Assembly (NCBI GenBank): GCA_947453795.1
Contig: CANGIC010000002.1
Span: 1 to 43,907 of the forward strand
Length of the DNA stretch: 43,907 nucleotides
DNA from: Flavobacteriales bacterium
GTDB lineage: Bacteria > Bacteroidota > Bacteroidia > Flavobacteriales_D > Crocinitomicaceae
Direction: 5' to 3'
The first letter of the stretch is position 1. Each line of letters begins with the position of its first letter. Position numbers and translations under genes: made by a program. A model generated the notes under the pieces. It ran no database searches. It was not told the DNA's origin and was given only the letters and a program-made list of their open reading frames with translations. Shown one piece after another: positions 10,160-32,824 of this stretch.

Positions 10160-10612
10160 CTAAATTTGCACGGCCTTCACCATGTCAATTTGGATATTGA
10201 AAAAGTCGAAATTTTCACCAGACACATGATGAGCAGCACTTATTTCCTCTTTATCCTCCATAAATTCCGGCTCTATGATTTCGTATACTCCATCTTCCTG
10301 CGGAATGGCTTCAAAGTAAAGGGAATAGAACTGCCAATCACGTTGCGATTCGAAATAATGCTTATTCGGAGAAAAAGATATTCCATTTGTATTCAGCAGC
10401 TTATATACCTTCTTTCCATTCCTTTCGCGCATATACGTTTCTGGTGAAATTTGAATCCAACCCCCATTGTTGTAAATACTGTTAAAGGTGGAATATCCAA
10501 AATCCACTTTCGTAAAACTCGGAGTGATCGTTATCCTTAAAAGGGTTGGATTGTCAGAAATTCCCTCATTCGGAACATGGGGAAACAAGTATGATTTCGT
10601 TGATTTTTTCAT
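10160..10612 (-). CDS. Small beta-rich hypothetical protein, paralog family member
   Basis: NGGWIQISPETYMRERNG...GISFSPNKHYFESQRDWQFYSLYFEAIP; start overlaps the stop of the WYL gene by 4 bp. Confidence 0.65.
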   Translation of the reverse strand: MKKSTKSYLFPHVPNEGISDNPTLLRITITPSFTKVDFGYSTFNSIYNNGGWIQISPETYMRERNGKKVYKLLNTNGISFSPNKHYFESQRDWQFYSLYFEAIPQEDGVYEIIEPEFMEDKEEISAAHHVSGENFDFFNIQIDMVKAVQI

Positions 10613-11589
10613 CGGTTATAATTTTCTTTTACTTCATTTCTCAACCATACTGGCTCTACAATTCGGATGGAATTCCCAAAGGATCGCAGCAAGCGAATAA
10701 GTTCGAAAGACGGAATGAGATTCAATTCTATACGCGCTCGACCACTGTTTTGGACCGAGACAAATTTTTGACTTTCGTGAATGGGGTATGATCGGAAATA
10801 CGCCAATTCTTGAGGGACTATGTCGATTATAATCTGTTGTAATTCTTGATTTTCAATTGGGTAAACGCCATAGATATGTTGAAAATACGCTACCGCATCA
10901 GGTCCTTGTTCACCTCGAAATTCAGCTTGCACACACACAGGATCATGGATTCGATCAAATCCAAAAGTCCGAATTTCGTTGTGCTCATCCGAATACGCGA
11001 CAACATACCACCGATTGTCAAACTCCTTGAGCAGCATAGGGTGTATAATGCGGGAAGTGAATCTATGTTTGCTGTAAGAATAATGGACAATGGAAACCGG
11101 AATGCGGTCTTTAATCGCGCGGAAAAACAAATCGAAATGTTCAAAACCACGAAAATCGCGCGGCGCATCCGTTTGAATGAATTGTCTTTTAAAGTCGCCC
11201 TGTGGGAATTTCTCCCGATAAGCAGTCAATACTTTTTCCATCGCATGTTCAAATTGTCCACTCACGCGAGAACTGCCAATGCTTTGAATCAACTCAATGG
11301 CATTTTTAATGCTGCTAATATCTTGGTCGAGTAATCCTACGCCGTCAAAACGATAGGTGTCGTCAGTATATTCATACGCTTTTTTGGTATAGTTGAATTC
11401 GATCGGCGCATGGAAGGAGATCCGCATGTTTTTAATGTCCTTCACGACTGTGTCTAATGCGGGCTCAAAATCTGTTTCTTTCGCACAGGCCTGAATCAGG
11501 TCTAGTAGTGTAGGCAATGGCTTTTGCCGATTTCGAAGCCGAGCATCGATGGCTTTGTACCTGAGGTAGGGATTTTTTGTTACGGGCAT
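10609..11589 (-). CDS. WYL domain-containing transcriptional regulator
   Basis: FRAIKDRIPVSIVHYSYSKHRFTSRIIHPMLLKEFDNRWYVVAYSDEHNEIRTFGFDRI is a WYL-domain core. Confidence 0.88.
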   Translation of the reverse strand: MPVTKNPYLRYKAIDARLRNRQKPLPTLLDLIQACAKETDFEPALDTVVKDIKNMRISFHAPIEFNYTKKAYEYTDDTYRFDGVGLLDQDISSIKNAIELIQSIGSSRVSGQFEHAMEKVLTAYREKFPQGDFKRQFIQTDAPRDFRGFEHFDLFFRAIKDRIPVSIVHYSYSKHRFTSRIIHPMLLKEFDNRWYVVAYSDEHNEIRTFGFDRIHDPVCVQAEFRGEQGPDAVAYFQHIYGVYPIENQELQQIIIDIVPQELAYFRSYPIHESQKFVSVQNSGRARIELNLIPSFELIRLLRSFGNSIRIVEPVWLRNEVKENYNR

Positions 11590-12876: not shown

Positions 12877-13722
12877 TTACGCCTTGATTTCATTCATTTC
12901 TTCACCCATTCCTCGAACAAAGCGATCAATCGCAACACGGCTATTGGCGCTCATTTTCAGTTCATAGCGCTCAGAATTGGCAATTTTCGTTAAATGAGGC
13001 ACACACAATGGGTACTCCTCTTTTAAAAGTAAATAGGCCTTCAATGACAGTTCAAAATGCAAGGGATATATAGTGTCCGTTGGTCCAAATCCAAAAGCAT
13101 CCGGTTTGGTTACCATGTGTTTGTCTTCATGTATCCACGATACACCAAGTAGCTCTACATTGGTGATTCGTTCAATATTATAGTACTTATTTTGACCTGA
13201 TGTTGCTTCGTAAGCCATCAGTGTTCGATAGTTGTCCGTAAACGCAAAAGGTTCAATGTAACGGTCTGAAATTTTCTGACTGTTCAAAGAGTGATAATTT
13301 TTTAGGACCACTTGACCGCGCTTCGCTATAGCTTCGCTCAACAATTCGATGATGCGACCTAGATGGGCTTTCAAGAGGTGACTAGACACAAGCGTCGATT
13401 CAGAAGAAAGGTAAATCTTCTTTAAAATAGAATCTTTTAAGGGATGATTTTTTGCAAAGCTCAACACCATTTTACGAATCAATTCAGACTCTTCGTTGGT
13501 GAATTTTACCCCACCCTCGTCATTGCTAGCCGGAATAGAATACCGATTAAATGAATCACGCTGCAAGTCAAACCCCAATTCCCTCAACAAATCAAAATAG
13601 CGGTAAACTGTTCGATCAGTCGTGTCGATTATAGCACCCAGTTGATGGATTGATTTTGCTGGCTCTTGTTTCAATAATGAAATCAGTTGCAAAACCCGCA
13701 AGATTTTATGTTGATTGAGCAT
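12877..13722 (-). CDS. HTH/WYL-type transcriptional regulator
   Basis: N-terminal HTH KILRVLQLISLLKQEPAKSIHQLGAIIDTTDRTVYRYFDLLRELGFDLQRD followed by a WYL-like region (PFAFTDNYRTLMAYEATSGQNKYYNIERITNVELL). Confidence 0.85.
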   Translation of the reverse strand: MLNQHKILRVLQLISLLKQEPAKSIHQLGAIIDTTDRTVYRYFDLLRELGFDLQRDSFNRYSIPASNDEGGVKFTNEESELIRKMVLSFAKNHPLKDSILKKIYLSSESTLVSSHLLKAHLGRIIELLSEAIAKRGQVVLKNYHSLNSQKISDRYIEPFAFTDNYRTLMAYEATSGQNKYYNIERITNVELLGVSWIHEDKHMVTKPDAFGFGPTDTIYPLHFELSLKAYLLLKEEYPLCVPHLTKIANSERYELKMSANSRVAIDRFVRGMGEEMNEIKA

Positions 13723-15584: not shown

Positions 15585-15660
15585 GGGACGAGAGACAAGG
15601 GACAAGGGACAAGGGACAAGAGACTTGGTCTTTACATTGGTGGCTGAGGACCTCGAAGCC
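15585..15660. repeat. Composite repeat copy 1: 7-bp GACAAGG tandem array plus conserved flank
   Basis: GGGACGAGAGACAA(GGgacaa)n...TTGGTGGCTGAGGACCTCGAAG, similar to 15756-15840. Confidence 0.8.
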
Positions 15661-15755
15661 ACATGGAATAAGAGACTTCAAGATGTTAAGACATTAAGAT
15701 TTTAGGACTTTAAATCTTGATTTGTTTTGTTTTTTCCTCGGGCCTTGTTGAACGA

Positions 15756-15840
15756 GGGACGAGAGACAAAGGACAAAGGACAAAGGACAAAGGACAAAGG
15801 ACATGATTTTACTTTGGTGGCTGAAGTCCTCGAAGTTGCC
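15756..15840. repeat. Composite repeat copy 2: 7-bp GACAAAG tandem array plus conserved flank
   Basis: GGGACGAGAGACAA(AGGACAA)n...TTTGGTGGCTGAAGTCCTCGAAG, abutting the RT stop codon. Confidence 0.8.
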
Positions 15841-16920
15841 CTATGTCAATGTTTTCAATTTCTCCTGAAAACGCAGAAAAATTGGATCATCTTTACCGCG
15901 TACTTGACCAATAAAAGAAATGTATCCGCGCAAGCGATTTAAAAAAATAAACTGGTCGCTTTCGCGCACTACAGGTGAATTTTTAAAGTGCTTCGCTGCA
16001 GCAGCGGTGGGACCATTTTTTTCGAAATCAAAGAGCATTGCTCTAACTTGACGGATTTGACTTCGTTTTACGTTTGCCTTCGTATTCACAACAATTCCCG
16101 TCACTTCCTTTCTTCTACCTGTGCCTTTTTGACGGATTTTCTTTTCGTTGATAACAAACCGATTGGATTCCACAATTGAACGAATTTGAGCGATTTCCGC
16201 ATCATGAAAGGGCATAACTGCAGAGAACGTAAGATCGTCAGCATAACGTGTGTAAGTCCAACCACGCTCGGCTGATAATTTTCTCATGGCCTCGTCCATT
16301 TCAGCGCAAATAAAATTGGTAAGGATTGGTGATGTAGGCGCGCCTTGCGGCAAATGACCTTTATAAGTTGTCAGCAATGTCAAAACCGTAGCCGTTTGCT
16401 CGTTGAATCGGAAGCGGTCAGAAAGAAAAATTTGCTTGACACGTTGCGCATGAATGGAAGGAAAAAAGTCCTTTATATCCAAATTGAGCACATACGGTTT
16501 ACCAACATGAGGCAACGCGTTTTGTACGATTGGTGATGCGGGGGTTGCGTTCTCATCGTTGATGACAAATCCAAAAACAGCAGGGTCTGGATTACACCTG
16601 TACAAGGACTGAAGTCCATCATTCATTAACCGTTGAACATGCATTAACCTTGGCTCTGGCGCTTCAATGTTACGCGCTCCACCCCTTTTTTTTGCAATAG
16701 AAAAGCTGCGGTATTTGGGTGTATTGAGGATTTGTTCGAGAACTGCGCGTGGCACCTGAAAATAGGCACACACATCTTGTGCATTTTCCAAGGAGAGCAA
16801 GAGTCCCGCAGAAATCATCTGTTTTGGCACCCCTGGAAAAAGTTTGAGGATTAAGTGTTGAGAACGAAGTGTTTTCTTTAGTTCCGGACCTTGCTGTTCA
16901 ACAAATTCGTACAATGTCAT
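15841..16920 (-). CDS. Retron-type reverse transcriptase
   Basis: 359 aa; NALPHVGKPYVLNLDIKDFFPSI (NAxxH plus RT1/2), LPQGAPTSPILTN, YTRYADDLTFS (catalytic YADD), RRKEVTGIVVN (VTG motif). Confidence 0.95.
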   Translation of the reverse strand: MTLYEFVEQQGPELKKTLRSQHLILKLFPGVPKQMISAGLLLSLENAQDVCAYFQVPRAVLEQILNTPKYRSFSIAKKRGGARNIEAPEPRLMHVQRLMNDGLQSLYRCNPDPAVFGFVINDENATPASPIVQNALPHVGKPYVLNLDIKDFFPSIHAQRVKQIFLSDRFRFNEQTATVLTLLTTYKGHLPQGAPTSPILTNFICAEMDEAMRKLSAERGWTYTRYADDLTFSAVMPFHDAEIAQIRSIVESNRFVINEKKIRQKGTGRRKEVTGIVVNTKANVKRSQIRQVRAMLFDFEKNGPTAAAAKHFKNSPVVRESDQFIFLNRLRGYISFIGQVRGKDDPIFLRFQEKLKTLT

Positions 16921-16930
16921 GTGATGTTTT

Positions 16931-17100
16931 TAAAAAAGAGAGCCGTTGCTTCTTATCTTCAATTTAGATGTTTCGGCGAAAGTGGAGCGCAGCGGAACTT
17001 CGACGAAACATCGAAGTTCATGGCCTCCATTCTCAATTGGGTTGCAGGTGCACAACCACTTATCGGTCAGTCCGACACATAAGTTGGGCAACGGCTCTCG
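16931..17100 (-). ncRNA. Retron msr-msd ncRNA
   Basis: On minus strand: a1 GAGAGCCGTTGC (17088-17099), msr hairpins, msd hairpin with arms 17004-17012/16967-16975 (GATGTTTCG/CGAAACATC), a2 GCAACGGCTCTC (16938-16949) then TTTTTT; located immediately upstream of the RT. Confidence 0.88.
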
Positions 17101-17106
17101 TAACGA

Positions 17107-18141
17107 TTAAAATGGTGTATCTCCTAATTCTTCCAATCTTTCACGATTTATTGAAAATCGCTCGAGATGGTCGTTTACTGAAATGATTCGCGTATAATTG
17201 GCGTCTCGGGCATATTGAATTCGCTCTAAGGAACCGCTTCTATTTTTGGCCAAGATCAACTCGGTAATGCCATCTGTTGTATTTCCATCCTCATCCTGCA
17301 TAAAACCATAATATTCTGGTCTGTAGAGGAAAAAAACTTTGTCCGCGTCTTGTTCAATCGAACCACTTTCTCTCAAATCGGAGAGTATCGGTCGTTTATC
17401 TCCTCCACGTGTCTCTACCATTCGGCTCAACTGGCTAGAAGCAATAAGTAGGACATTAAATTCTCGTGCAACGTTCTTTAATTCTCGACTGACATAACTC
17501 ATCTCCATTTCACGGTTATGACGGTATCGATCTGAGCTTATGAGCTGGATGTAATCGATAAAAACCACTTTCACCCCATCTTCCTCAACATGCTTTTTGC
17601 AACGTTCACGAAGAACTTGAAGTGACTTCGTGGGTTGGTCACTAATCCACAATTTTCGCGATTGAAACTCATTTTTCACAGAATCAATCAACTCCAATTC
17701 CAAGCGATTCAAAGACCCCGACATGATTTGATTCAATGAAATCCCTGACAAAGCTGCCACCATGCGTTTTACCAACAATCCTTCAGATAAATCAAAACTG
17801 CAATACAATACGGGAGTTTTCGTAGAAATATTCAAGGCCAGATTCATCAGTAGATGCGTTTTTCCCATAGCCGGACGTCCGCCAAAAACTACATACTCCC
17901 CTTGAAACAAGGGAACACGTTGATCAAAATCTTCCATTCCCGTTTCAATGATTTCTCCCGCTACCCCAAAATCACTTATGTGCGAAGAAAAAATATCGAT
18001 GGCTTTTTTTGCCGGTAGTGAGGAATTCTCACGAAACTCAATTTCACGAACAATAGCGTTTAATTCCGCCAAGATGTGCTGGTCATCTTTGTTTTGATCC
18101 TCAATAATCTTTCGTAATCGGTGCTGAATAGATGTATGCAT
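17107..18141 (-). CDS. DnaB-like helicase C-terminal domain protein (short N-terminus), retron-linked
   Basis: Walker A VVFGGRPAMGKTHLLMNLALN, FIDYIQLISS Walker B, IASSQLSRMVETRGGDKRPILSDLRESGSIEQDADKVFFLYRPEYY; 344 aa. Confidence 0.9.
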   Translation of the reverse strand: MHTSIQHRLRKIIEDQNKDDQHILAELNAIVREIEFRENSSLPAKKAIDIFSSHISDFGVAGEIIETGMEDFDQRVPLFQGEYVVFGGRPAMGKTHLLMNLALNISTKTPVLYCSFDLSEGLLVKRMVAALSGISLNQIMSGSLNRLELELIDSVKNEFQSRKLWISDQPTKSLQVLRERCKKHVEEDGVKVVFIDYIQLISSDRYRHNREMEMSYVSRELKNVAREFNVLLIASSQLSRMVETRGGDKRPILSDLRESGSIEQDADKVFFLYRPEYYGFMQDEDGNTTDGITELILAKNRSGSLERIQYARDANYTRIISVNDHLERFSINRERLEELGDTPF

Positions 18142-18258: not shown

Positions 18259-18855
18259 TTAATCTAACCACGAAAACCAAGTTTCTTGTTCAACATGCTC
18301 CACCTTCATTTGCTCACAAACTTTGATGGTATGCCCAGTTCCGCCTGGCTTGGTTGCCTTTCGGTCCACATAGAAAATCGCAAAACGAGCGGGTTTCACC
18401 TCTTCTGAACCCGTTACCATCAAGGTGCTTCGAAGAATATATTTCGCATTCGCTACAATTTTTCCTGTTGTTTCACCCTTCAAATATTTATCAATTCCGT
18501 GTTGAGTCCCTTTATGTGTCTTGGCCTGATCCACTAAGGTTGGTTCATTAACCACATCTACTCGATCTAAAGAAAAACTACCATACCCCACGCGATTTTC
18601 CGGTCGATGATTCGGATAAGGAAGAATGATTTCGACCCGAGACGGATCAATTGCCCCTACTCCAGAAATAAATAAACTATCCGCACCTTCCGCATTTCCA
18701 CTTCGAAAGACAATATGCTTGCTTCGCTTGGCCAATAATCTGCCTAAATCAATCAACTTTTGTTCATCCGCAGGTGACACATTACGGCTACCTGCAAGTA
18801 AAACAACACCTCCTGCGGTATCGTACTTTTCAAAAAATGTATCTAAATCTAACAT
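18259..18855 (-). CDS. SLOG/DprA-like Rossmann-fold protein (putative)
   Basis: VVLLAGSRNVSPADEQKLIDLGRLLAKRSKHIVFRSGNAEGADSLFISG... and C-terminal KPGGTGHTIKVCEQ resemble SLOG nucleotide-binding folds. Confidence 0.6.
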   Translation of the reverse strand: MLDLDTFFEKYDTAGGVVLLAGSRNVSPADEQKLIDLGRLLAKRSKHIVFRSGNAEGADSLFISGVGAIDPSRVEIILPYPNHRPENRVGYGSFSLDRVDVVNEPTLVDQAKTHKGTQHGIDKYLKGETTGKIVANAKYILRSTLMVTGSEEVKPARFAIFYVDRKATKPGGTGHTIKVCEQMKVEHVEQETWFSWLD

Positions 18856-31090: not shown

Positions 31091-32824
31091 ATGCAGAAAA
31101 AAATCTCCGCTCAAAAGGCAACAACAGGTATGGCACCATCATCGGAAGTCGTATCAAAAAACAAAAAAATCACCCCATTGGACGCAATCAACACGATCTA
31201 CTATGCCTCCAAAGACTCTTCTATTCCCGAGGACTTGATCCCTGGCTTAAAGAAAGAACTCACTGTACTTTCAACGTACTTGACTTGTAACCATACCGAG
31301 GCCTTTCTATTCGCAAACATCGCCACACTAAACTTGTTTGGCGATAAATCCGACATGGTAGATTTGTACCGTTTTTTTGAAATTACACCCTTCCAATTTA
31401 TGCCTTTCCTCCCGGCGCTGGATTCGTTGTATGAAAAACGATTGATTTTCAAGAAGACGCACCGCCACCGCTCGGATGATGTGATGCGCAAATATTACTA
31501 TTCTGCTGCTCCAGACATTATTGATGCACTGATCCGCAACGCACCATTCCCTCAATCGGAGAAAAGAGAAATGAATGGTACGATTGAAGTATTGGAGGTG
31601 ATTTATGAACTTGCAAACGCTTGCATTCAAGGCGAAATGAATATCACCGACCTCATTACCGAAGTGGATCAAATCTTGAATGCACAGAAAAAACATGCCT
31701 TTATTCGCACGATTCGCGACCTCGACTTGCTTGACAAAGAACGCGTATTGTACATTTATGTCATTTGGAAAACGCTAATGGGAACTGCAGCTGTAGATAT
31801 GGACGATCCCATTACTGCCTTTTTCCCAATATCCTCGCACCGCGTACGCTACATTCAAAGCATCTACAGTGGCGAATGCAAATTGATTAGCAATGACCTT
31901 TTGGAATACCGCCAGTCGCGATTTTTCAATGATGTCGAACTGCAAGTGACAGAGAAAACATCGGATTTACTGCAGGACGATCAAATTGTAATCTTCAAGC
32001 AAAAGAAAAAATCCAACACCATTAAACCTGAATCTATTGGTGCAAAAACCCTTTTTTACAGCGCTCAAGAGGAATCACAGATTTCTACCGTACGCGAAAT
32101 GATGATGGACAACACCTACACAGCACTCATCGATCGTTTGAAAGGAAAAAACCTTCCGCTTAACTTGAACATTCTACTTTTTGGTGCCCCCGGTACTGGT
32201 AAGACTGAAACAGTTTTGCAGTTGGCGAAGGCGAGCGGACGCGAAATAATGAAAGTGGAAATCAGCCAAACAAAATCAATGTGGTTTGGAGAGTCGGAGA
32301 AAAACATTAAAAAGATCTTCAAAGAGTATGAGGATTTGTGTAAAAATTGCGAGCTCACGCCTGTTCTATTCTTTAACGAAGCGGATGCCATTCTCTCCAA
32401 CAGAAAGAGCGGTTCGAACAGCAATACTGCCCAAACGGAGAATGCCATTCAAAATATTCTTTTGGAAGAATTGGAGAATTTCAAAGGCATCTTCCTGGCT
32501 ACAACCAATCTTGCCGATAACCTCGATAAGGCCTTCGATAGAAGATTTTTGTTCAAGATCAAGTTCGAAAGACCAGAATTAACGGCAAGAACAGCCATCT
32601 GGATGGATAAAATCAGCTATTTATCAAAAGATGACGCTATGTATTTGGCGGATAATTTTGACCTTACTGGGGGACAGATTGACAACATCGTGCGCAAATG
32701 TGAAATTAAATCTGTAATCGAAGGAATTGATGCAGACTTTGAGATGCTGAAAAGCTATTGCTTTGAGGAGCTTGTGCTCTCATCAAAATCAGGTAATTTC
32801 ATTGGTTTTCAAAAGCGTGCGTAG
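31091..32824 (+). CDS. AAA+ family ATPase
   Basis: LLFGAPGTGKTETVLQLAKASG Walker A, PVLFFNEADAILSNR Walker B-like, LATTNLADNLDKAFDRRFLFKIKFERP. Confidence 0.92.
   Translation: MQKKISAQKATTGMAPSSEVVSKNKKITPLDAINTIYYASKDSSIPEDLIPGLKKELTVLSTYLTCNHTEAFLFANIATLNLFGDKSDMVDLYRFFEITPFQFMPFLPALDSLYEKRLIFKKTHRHRSDDVMRKYYYSAAPDIIDALIRNAPFPQSEKREMNGTIEVLEVIYELANACIQGEMNITDLITEVDQILNAQKKHAFIRTIRDLDLLDKERVLYIYVIWKTLMGTAAVDMDDPITAFFPISSHRVRYIQSIYSGECKLISNDLLEYRQSRFFNDVELQVTEKTSDLLQDDQIVIFKQKKKSNTIKPESIGAKTLFYSAQEESQISTVREMMMDNTYTALIDRLKGKNLPLNLNILLFGAPGTGKTETVLQLAKASGREIMKVEISQTKSMWFGESEKNIKKIFKEYEDLCKNCELTPVLFFNEADAILSNRKSGSNSNTAQTENAIQNILLEELENFKGIFLATTNLADNLDKAFDRRFLFKIKFERPELTARTAIWMDKISYLSKDDAMYLADNFDLTGGQIDNIVRKCEIKSVIEGIDADFEMLKSYCFEELVLSSKSGNFIGFQKRA

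Follow-up and report, generated by a model that had tools for sequence, protein, structure and literature searches.

A DnaB-like helicase gene as the probable third component of a retron in Bacteroidota

Which genes belong to a retron whose reverse transcriptase (RT) and structured RNA lie directly behind a helicase gene? This question is raised by a 43,907-nucleotide (nt) stretch of DNA from a Flavobacteriales bacterium (contig CANGIC010000002.1 of assembly GCA_947453795.1), hereafter called the window. Retrons are bacterial elements that use their own enzyme to make a DNA copy of a small RNA, usually for anti-phage defence. An initial annotation described positions 15841-17100 as a complete retron of standard layout, comprising an RT and its msr-msd noncoding RNA (ncRNA). 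That the two make up a genuine retron we regard as nearly certain. The description falls short in extent and completeness, since it overlooked a conserved gene for a DnaB-like protein (17107-18141) that ends 7 nt before the a1 arm of the ncRNA and belongs to the unit as well. We propose that the DnaB-like gene, the ncRNA and the RT gene, arranged in this order on the minus strand, probably form one three-part unit with the DnaB-like protein as its effector.

The association recurs across genomes. A DnaB-like gene lies directly upstream of the RT gene in 36 loci that span many Bacteroidota families and varied surroundings. Searching the family for DnaB-like proteins recovered a short paralogue that is not the replicative DnaB; where the contig was long enough, a related RT gene follows it in the same orientation ~160-240 nt further on. 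Searching the class for the RT (388 genomes besides the window's own) returned 13 strong loci besides the window, the locus that we number L026 again among them, and all of these carry a DnaB-like gene. One DnaB-retron copy (L081) sits on an IMG/VR contig. The window's closest relatives have the entire neighbourhood in common by descent, so the distant loci carry the weight. Outer flanks differ among loci, and shared descent of a large neighbourhood therefore does not explain the association.

Phylogenies of the two proteins tie them together further. In a tree of 78 RTs, the 30 DnaB-linked sequences and one other, L170, form a single clade (support 98/96), while a DnaB neighbour occurs in 0 of the 47 RTs outside it; some deep branches of this tree are long, and how they are ordered is unsure. 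A split with 100/100 support divides the retron DnaBs from the replicative DnaBs found in the same family. Distances among the RTs mirror those among the DnaB-like proteins (r = 0.83; none of 2000 permutations gave a value as high). Among class-wide RT matches above 316 bits, L170 alone has no DnaB-like gene. Its RT (L170:347-1447) lies near the clade base, next to a short array of repeats with a 71-nt period; a related RT (L230:1486-2520) adjoins cas1 and has no DnaB neighbour. L170 thus looked at first like a DnaB-less clade member, but given the repeat array and this cas1-adjacent relative it is more probably an RT of another kind, linked to CRISPR.

The partner gene encodes a DnaB motor. 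Its product matches PF03796, the DnaB C-terminal motor, with an E-value of 3.7e-71, and a profile of the family aligns to residues ~117-449 of solved DnaB, so that the linker helix and the RecA motor are covered and the N-terminal domain is not. An AlphaFold model (predicted local distance difference test score, pLDDT, 80.7; predicted template-modelling score, pTM, 0.72) has as its best Foldseek matches DnaB structures with single-stranded DNA (ssDNA), 4esv first, with a template-modelling score of ~0.7 by query. The motor motifs are intact: Walker A (G93, K94), Walker B (D196), the LRESG region, into which we take the ssDNA contacts of DnaB to fall, and KN(R). In close relatives the ratio of nonsynonymous to synonymous substitution rates (dN/dS) is ~0.05, a rough figure that is clearly below 1.

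Replicative DnaB shares the C-terminal motor, the linker helix and the motifs, at 28-34% identity in model alignments. Unlike this protein of ~520-560 amino acids (aa), the partner has 344 aa, is missing the N-terminal domain in the main clade and belongs to a separate clade. These differences set the gene apart from replicative dnaB, and the genome encodes a full-length DnaB separately on another contig (G000:C149). Deep members retain a recognisable N-terminal domain, which scores above the Pfam cut-off in L169 and slightly under it in L026; this suggests that the DnaB-like gene derives from a full DnaB and lost this domain later. Very probably, the protein is the functional partner of the retron.

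The RT itself bears the marks of a retron enzyme. The catalytic YADD, the NAxxH motif (NALPH) and the VTG motif (EVTG) that the initial annotation named are all present in the translation of the open reading frame (ORF), which starts with ATG at 16920, and N134, A135 and H138, YADD at 226-229, and T274 and G275 are invariant across 16 aligned RTs. Assignment to retrons over group II introns or defence-associated RTs (DRTs) holds as well, the highest scores coming from retron models: types XI, XII and I-C reach 326, 299 and 296 bits, against 52.5 bits for the group II intron model and 43.7 for Drt2. The nearest solved structures are those of retrons Ec67 (the closest) and Ec86. No C-terminal effector fusion was found on the RT, whose profile match runs to the end of the ORF (0 residues remain). 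Its dN/dS among close relatives is 0.07-0.14, rough at these synonymous distances and clearly below 1. In plasmid and phage records, RT matches reach only ~40% identity.

The ncRNA has retron features as well. The two arms described at its ends, a1 and a2, are perfectly complementary over 12 bp and enclose 138 nt, and the T6 run lies between a2 and the RT start codon as noted; most members have a T run 3' of a2. Positions 16931-17106 fold at -66.7 kcal/mol, compared with a shuffle mean of -41.6 (standard deviation 3.8; z -6.58), and 0 of 200 shuffles were as good. We measured covariation in 23 aligned homologous loci, using an alignment that was not fitted to structure; in all 23 the ncRNA sits between the partner gene and the RT. 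Pairing of a1 with a2 is kept there, with 96.8% of cells paired and two-sided changes in 10 of 11 pairs (for example AAAGCCGTTGCC/GGCAACGGCTTT in L052 versus GAGCCCTTACC/GGTAAGGGCTC in L055). These compensatory changes show that arm complementarity exceeds chance. For three tested helices jointly, 38 cells changed on both sides versus 8.9 in shuffles, and sliding the partner columns by 1-3 lowered the cells paired from 91.5% to 25-49%.

Inside the arms, msr stem-loop 2 has 94.6% of cells paired and two-sided changes in 2 of 4 pairs. Msr stem-loop 1 contains a conserved TTATG (17082-17078) whose G, near a1, is invariant in the alignment, and its TTAT may alternatively form pairs with a conserved ATAA that precedes a2. 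The AGATAA block 5' of a2 is, by analogy with known retrons, a putative start of reverse transcription. A CAATT/AATTG closure that had been suggested for the msd is lost even in the nearest relatives, which have CAATG (L016) and CCAAA (L018) at that place. The long msd hairpin GATGTTTCG/CGAAACATC fared better: members of the genus share it, even though an unconstrained minimum-energy fold favours another local hairpin. Its stem sequence differs wholly among members, yet a direct stem search found it complementary in most; RNAalifold on the whole alignment missed this variable stem. Its loop carries the motif CRCTnCGYTCC in 17 of 23 loci, versus 0.007 expected under mononucleotide shuffling, and may be where the DnaB-like protein or a trigger makes contact. 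The locus has both the msr stem-loops and the long msd hairpin expected of a retron. Rfam holds no matching RNA family for the ncRNA at gathering or permissive thresholds.

How does this unit relate to known retrons? In types XI (RT-protease), XII (RT-TIR) and I-C (RT-Toprim, Ec67/Eco2), the effector is fused C-terminally to the RT. These types have the RT sequences closest to that of the window, whose RT in contrast ends after the RT region and whose partner is a separate upstream gene. In this respect the unit resembles retrons with separate effectors, such as Ec86 and Eco8, in which the partner gene adjoins the ncRNA and RT. Eco8 has an OLD ATPase-Toprim effector and a replication-linked trigger (PMC12887533), and like the DnaB-retron it has an ATPase partner. 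Unlike the partners of Ec86 and Eco8, that of the window is a DnaB-family ring helicase motor and not a nucleotide-degrading enzyme or nuclease.

More broadly, nucleases, NAD- or nucleotide-degrading enzymes, proteases, and DNA-binding and membrane proteins make up most of the known retron partners. A 2026 preprint (PMC13405049) counts sixteen retron subtypes, with HNH and HEPN nucleases, ATPases, membrane proteins and cold-shock proteins among their effectors. We did not find a retron-DnaB pairing in the literature searched, a search that ran without the classification of Mestre et al. 2020. PADLOC-DB 2.0.0 returned no retron effector model for 18 DnaB-like proteins, only weak matches to mad8, PDC-S27 and typeIV_DinG. 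The mad8 component of MADS defence, a related P-loop motor, matched all 18 at best with 2.4e-7, far below the DnaB_C match; MADS partners were sought among the neighbouring genes only.

The likeness to other retrons suggests how the unit might act. In known retrons, the RT together with multicopy single-stranded DNA (msDNA) restrains a partner protein, which phage interference releases or activates (PMC12548924). Eco8 responds to phage single-stranded DNA-binding protein (SSB), and its active form is a complex, not the effector alone (PMC12887533). By analogy, the RT would make msDNA from the ncRNA, and RT and msDNA would bind the DnaB-like ring motor in a complex and keep it inactive. A phage nuclease, methylase or SSB, for example, might then disturb the msDNA or the RT and free or activate the DnaB-like protein, an uncertain step. 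Without a primase-binding domain, the freed ring helicase would act on replicating DNA, load on or unwind ssDNA, block both host and phage replication and so bring the infected cell to a stop. We consider a role of the DnaB-retron in defence likely, and we put forward tentatively, as an open contender, that release of the DnaB-like ring blocks replication. A fuller picture is more speculative: a new retron type with a replicative helicase turned immune effector, whose ring would be occupied or capped by an msDNA decoy bearing the conserved loop at the tip of its variable stem. Once phage replication proteins disturbed the msDNA, the freed ring would load on forks or ssDNA, and replication of host and phage would jam.

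Other readings of the locus differ in how they treat the partner. The DnaB-like protein might be a sensor or regulator that reads forks or the single strand of the msDNA, leaving the active part to a host factor or to the complex as a whole. DnaB-family motors bind ssDNA and msDNA is itself ssDNA, every helicase motif is kept, and Eco8 is active as a complex triggered by a replication protein. We nevertheless judge this role unlikely: the partner proteins of retrons mostly act as effectors, and the inspected loci hold no second conserved gene that could serve as a toxin. Still less probable is a cellular role in which the protein and msDNA aid restart or repair of stalled forks. Such housekeeping would fit an intact motor, genes under strong purifying selection and an element passed on vertically among the close relatives of the window, but occurrence is patchy (13 of 388 class genomes besides the window's own have a strong RT match and DnaB gene), and the differing sites and the IMG/VR copy resemble a mobile defence module. 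Joint inheritance of the neighbourhood in the closest relatives, including a gene for a 198-aa protein, could be taken to mean that the DnaB-like gene stands there by chance or as a hitch-hiker, the retron using its RT and ncRNA only, or the 198-aa protein. This we find very improbable, as DnaB, ncRNA and RT stay together in 36 loci despite differing outer flanks, DnaB linkage is 30 of 31 inside the RT clade versus none outside, the RT and DnaB distances are correlated, and homologues of the 198-aa protein elsewhere have neither RT nor DnaB in their flanks. That the RT comes instead from a group II intron, a diversity-generating retroelement, a DRT or abortive-infection (Abi) system or a CRISPR-linked module is scarcely credible: CRISPR-linked RTs (L170, L230) do lie near the clade base, but the model scores strongly favour a retron and the msr-msd is conserved by covariation.

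Several points weigh against the three-part unit with a helicase effector. We know of no helicase established as a retron effector, and the DnaB motor could instead be a sensor, loader or processing factor. Production of msDNA, phage defence and toxicity are predicted from sequence. The textbook AGC context of the branching guanosine is not evident in the ncRNA. In-frame stops interrupt the RT of the DnaB-retrons L161 and L168, which indicates that some copies are decaying. Finally, the retron type is likely undescribed, as judged from PADLOC-DB, Rfam and the literature searched.

Table 1. Features of the DnaB-retron locus, in window coordinates.
Feature	Position	Strand	Basis
DnaB-like helicase/ATPase gene, 344 aa; DnaB C-terminal RecA motor and linker helix; probable effector	17107..18141	-	PF03796, PDB profile, AlphaFold/Foldseek, RT neighbour in 36 loci
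ncRNA (msr-msd), limits a1 and a2	16938..17099	-	fold; same place in 23 aligned loci
a1 arm GAGAGCCGTTGC	17088..17099	-	covaries with a2, 10/11 aligned pairs
msr stem-loop 1	17059..17083	-	alignment of 23 loci
msr stem-loop 2 GGTTGTGCACCTGCAACC	17040..17057	-	94.6% of cells paired
msd hairpin, stem GATGTTTCG/CGAAACATC	16967..17012	-	unrelated-sequence stems at equivalent place in most members
Apical loop motif of msd hairpin CGCTGCGCTCC, consensus CRCTnCGYTCC	16984..16994	-	17/23 loci
AGATAA block, near-invariant, directly 5' of a2	16953..16958	-	alignment
a2 arm GCAACGGCTCTC	16938..16949	-	sequence, covariation
T6 run directly after a2	16932..16937	-	sequence
Retron RT, 359 aa, no C-terminal effector domain	15841..16920	-	motifs, retron models
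198-aa protein, no known family, upstream of DnaB-like gene, probably outside core	18259..18855	-	neighbour in genus only

Around the core, the 198-aa protein has no Pfam, NCBIfam or PADLOC match and is scattered in Bacteroidota (10 of 297 genomes). Outside the window's close relatives it is not a neighbour of the retron, and homologues in other genomes are without RT or DnaB flanks; we therefore rejected it as the retron partner. In an empty-site comparison within the genus, the flanking malic enzyme had no close orthologue in the other members, whose homologues of the M48 protein are all distant. Elsewhere in the family, a gene for a protein of 186-198 aa, with no Pfam family, follows the RT on the same strand, starting at most ~24 nt from the RT end or overlapping it (L195:9736-10329, L199:8379-8936, L200:4907-5467, L201:8895-9455 and L202); it is a possible optional third gene.

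Of 17 loci inspected in the family, ~10 have an RtcR-family sigma-54 regulator, a regulator of RNA repair, next to the DnaB-retron (L196:3672-5144, with PF06956; L207:9231-10664; L206:2529-3968; also L195, L197, L198, L200-L202 and L208). In L206 and L207 its gene is divergent from the retron-containing gene cluster. Perhaps RNA damage controls expression of these DnaB-retrons; sigma-54 promoters before the RtcR-adjacent retrons appeared as isolated matches only, none of them conserved. Short tandem repeats of the CCTTTGT/CTCTTGT type occupy intergenic DNA after the RT in the window (15590-15805) and in a relative (L018:2280-2345). Two regulators of WYL/HTH type lie near the window's retron (10609-11589 and 12877-13722), and similar-looking proteins occur near L081 (2094-3161) and L201 (11837-12844). 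Further away, positions 31091-32824 of the window encode a 577-aa AAA protein with an IetA/TRIP13-like PADLOC match (E-value 6e-25).

DnaB-retrons span many families of Bacteroidota, a phylum in which retron biology has been little tested, and dozens of msr-msd sequences from them are new material for DNA-writing tools. If a DnaB motor is indeed their constant partner, retron sensing would be tied directly to the replication fork, and these bacteria would have a new way of stopping an infected cell.
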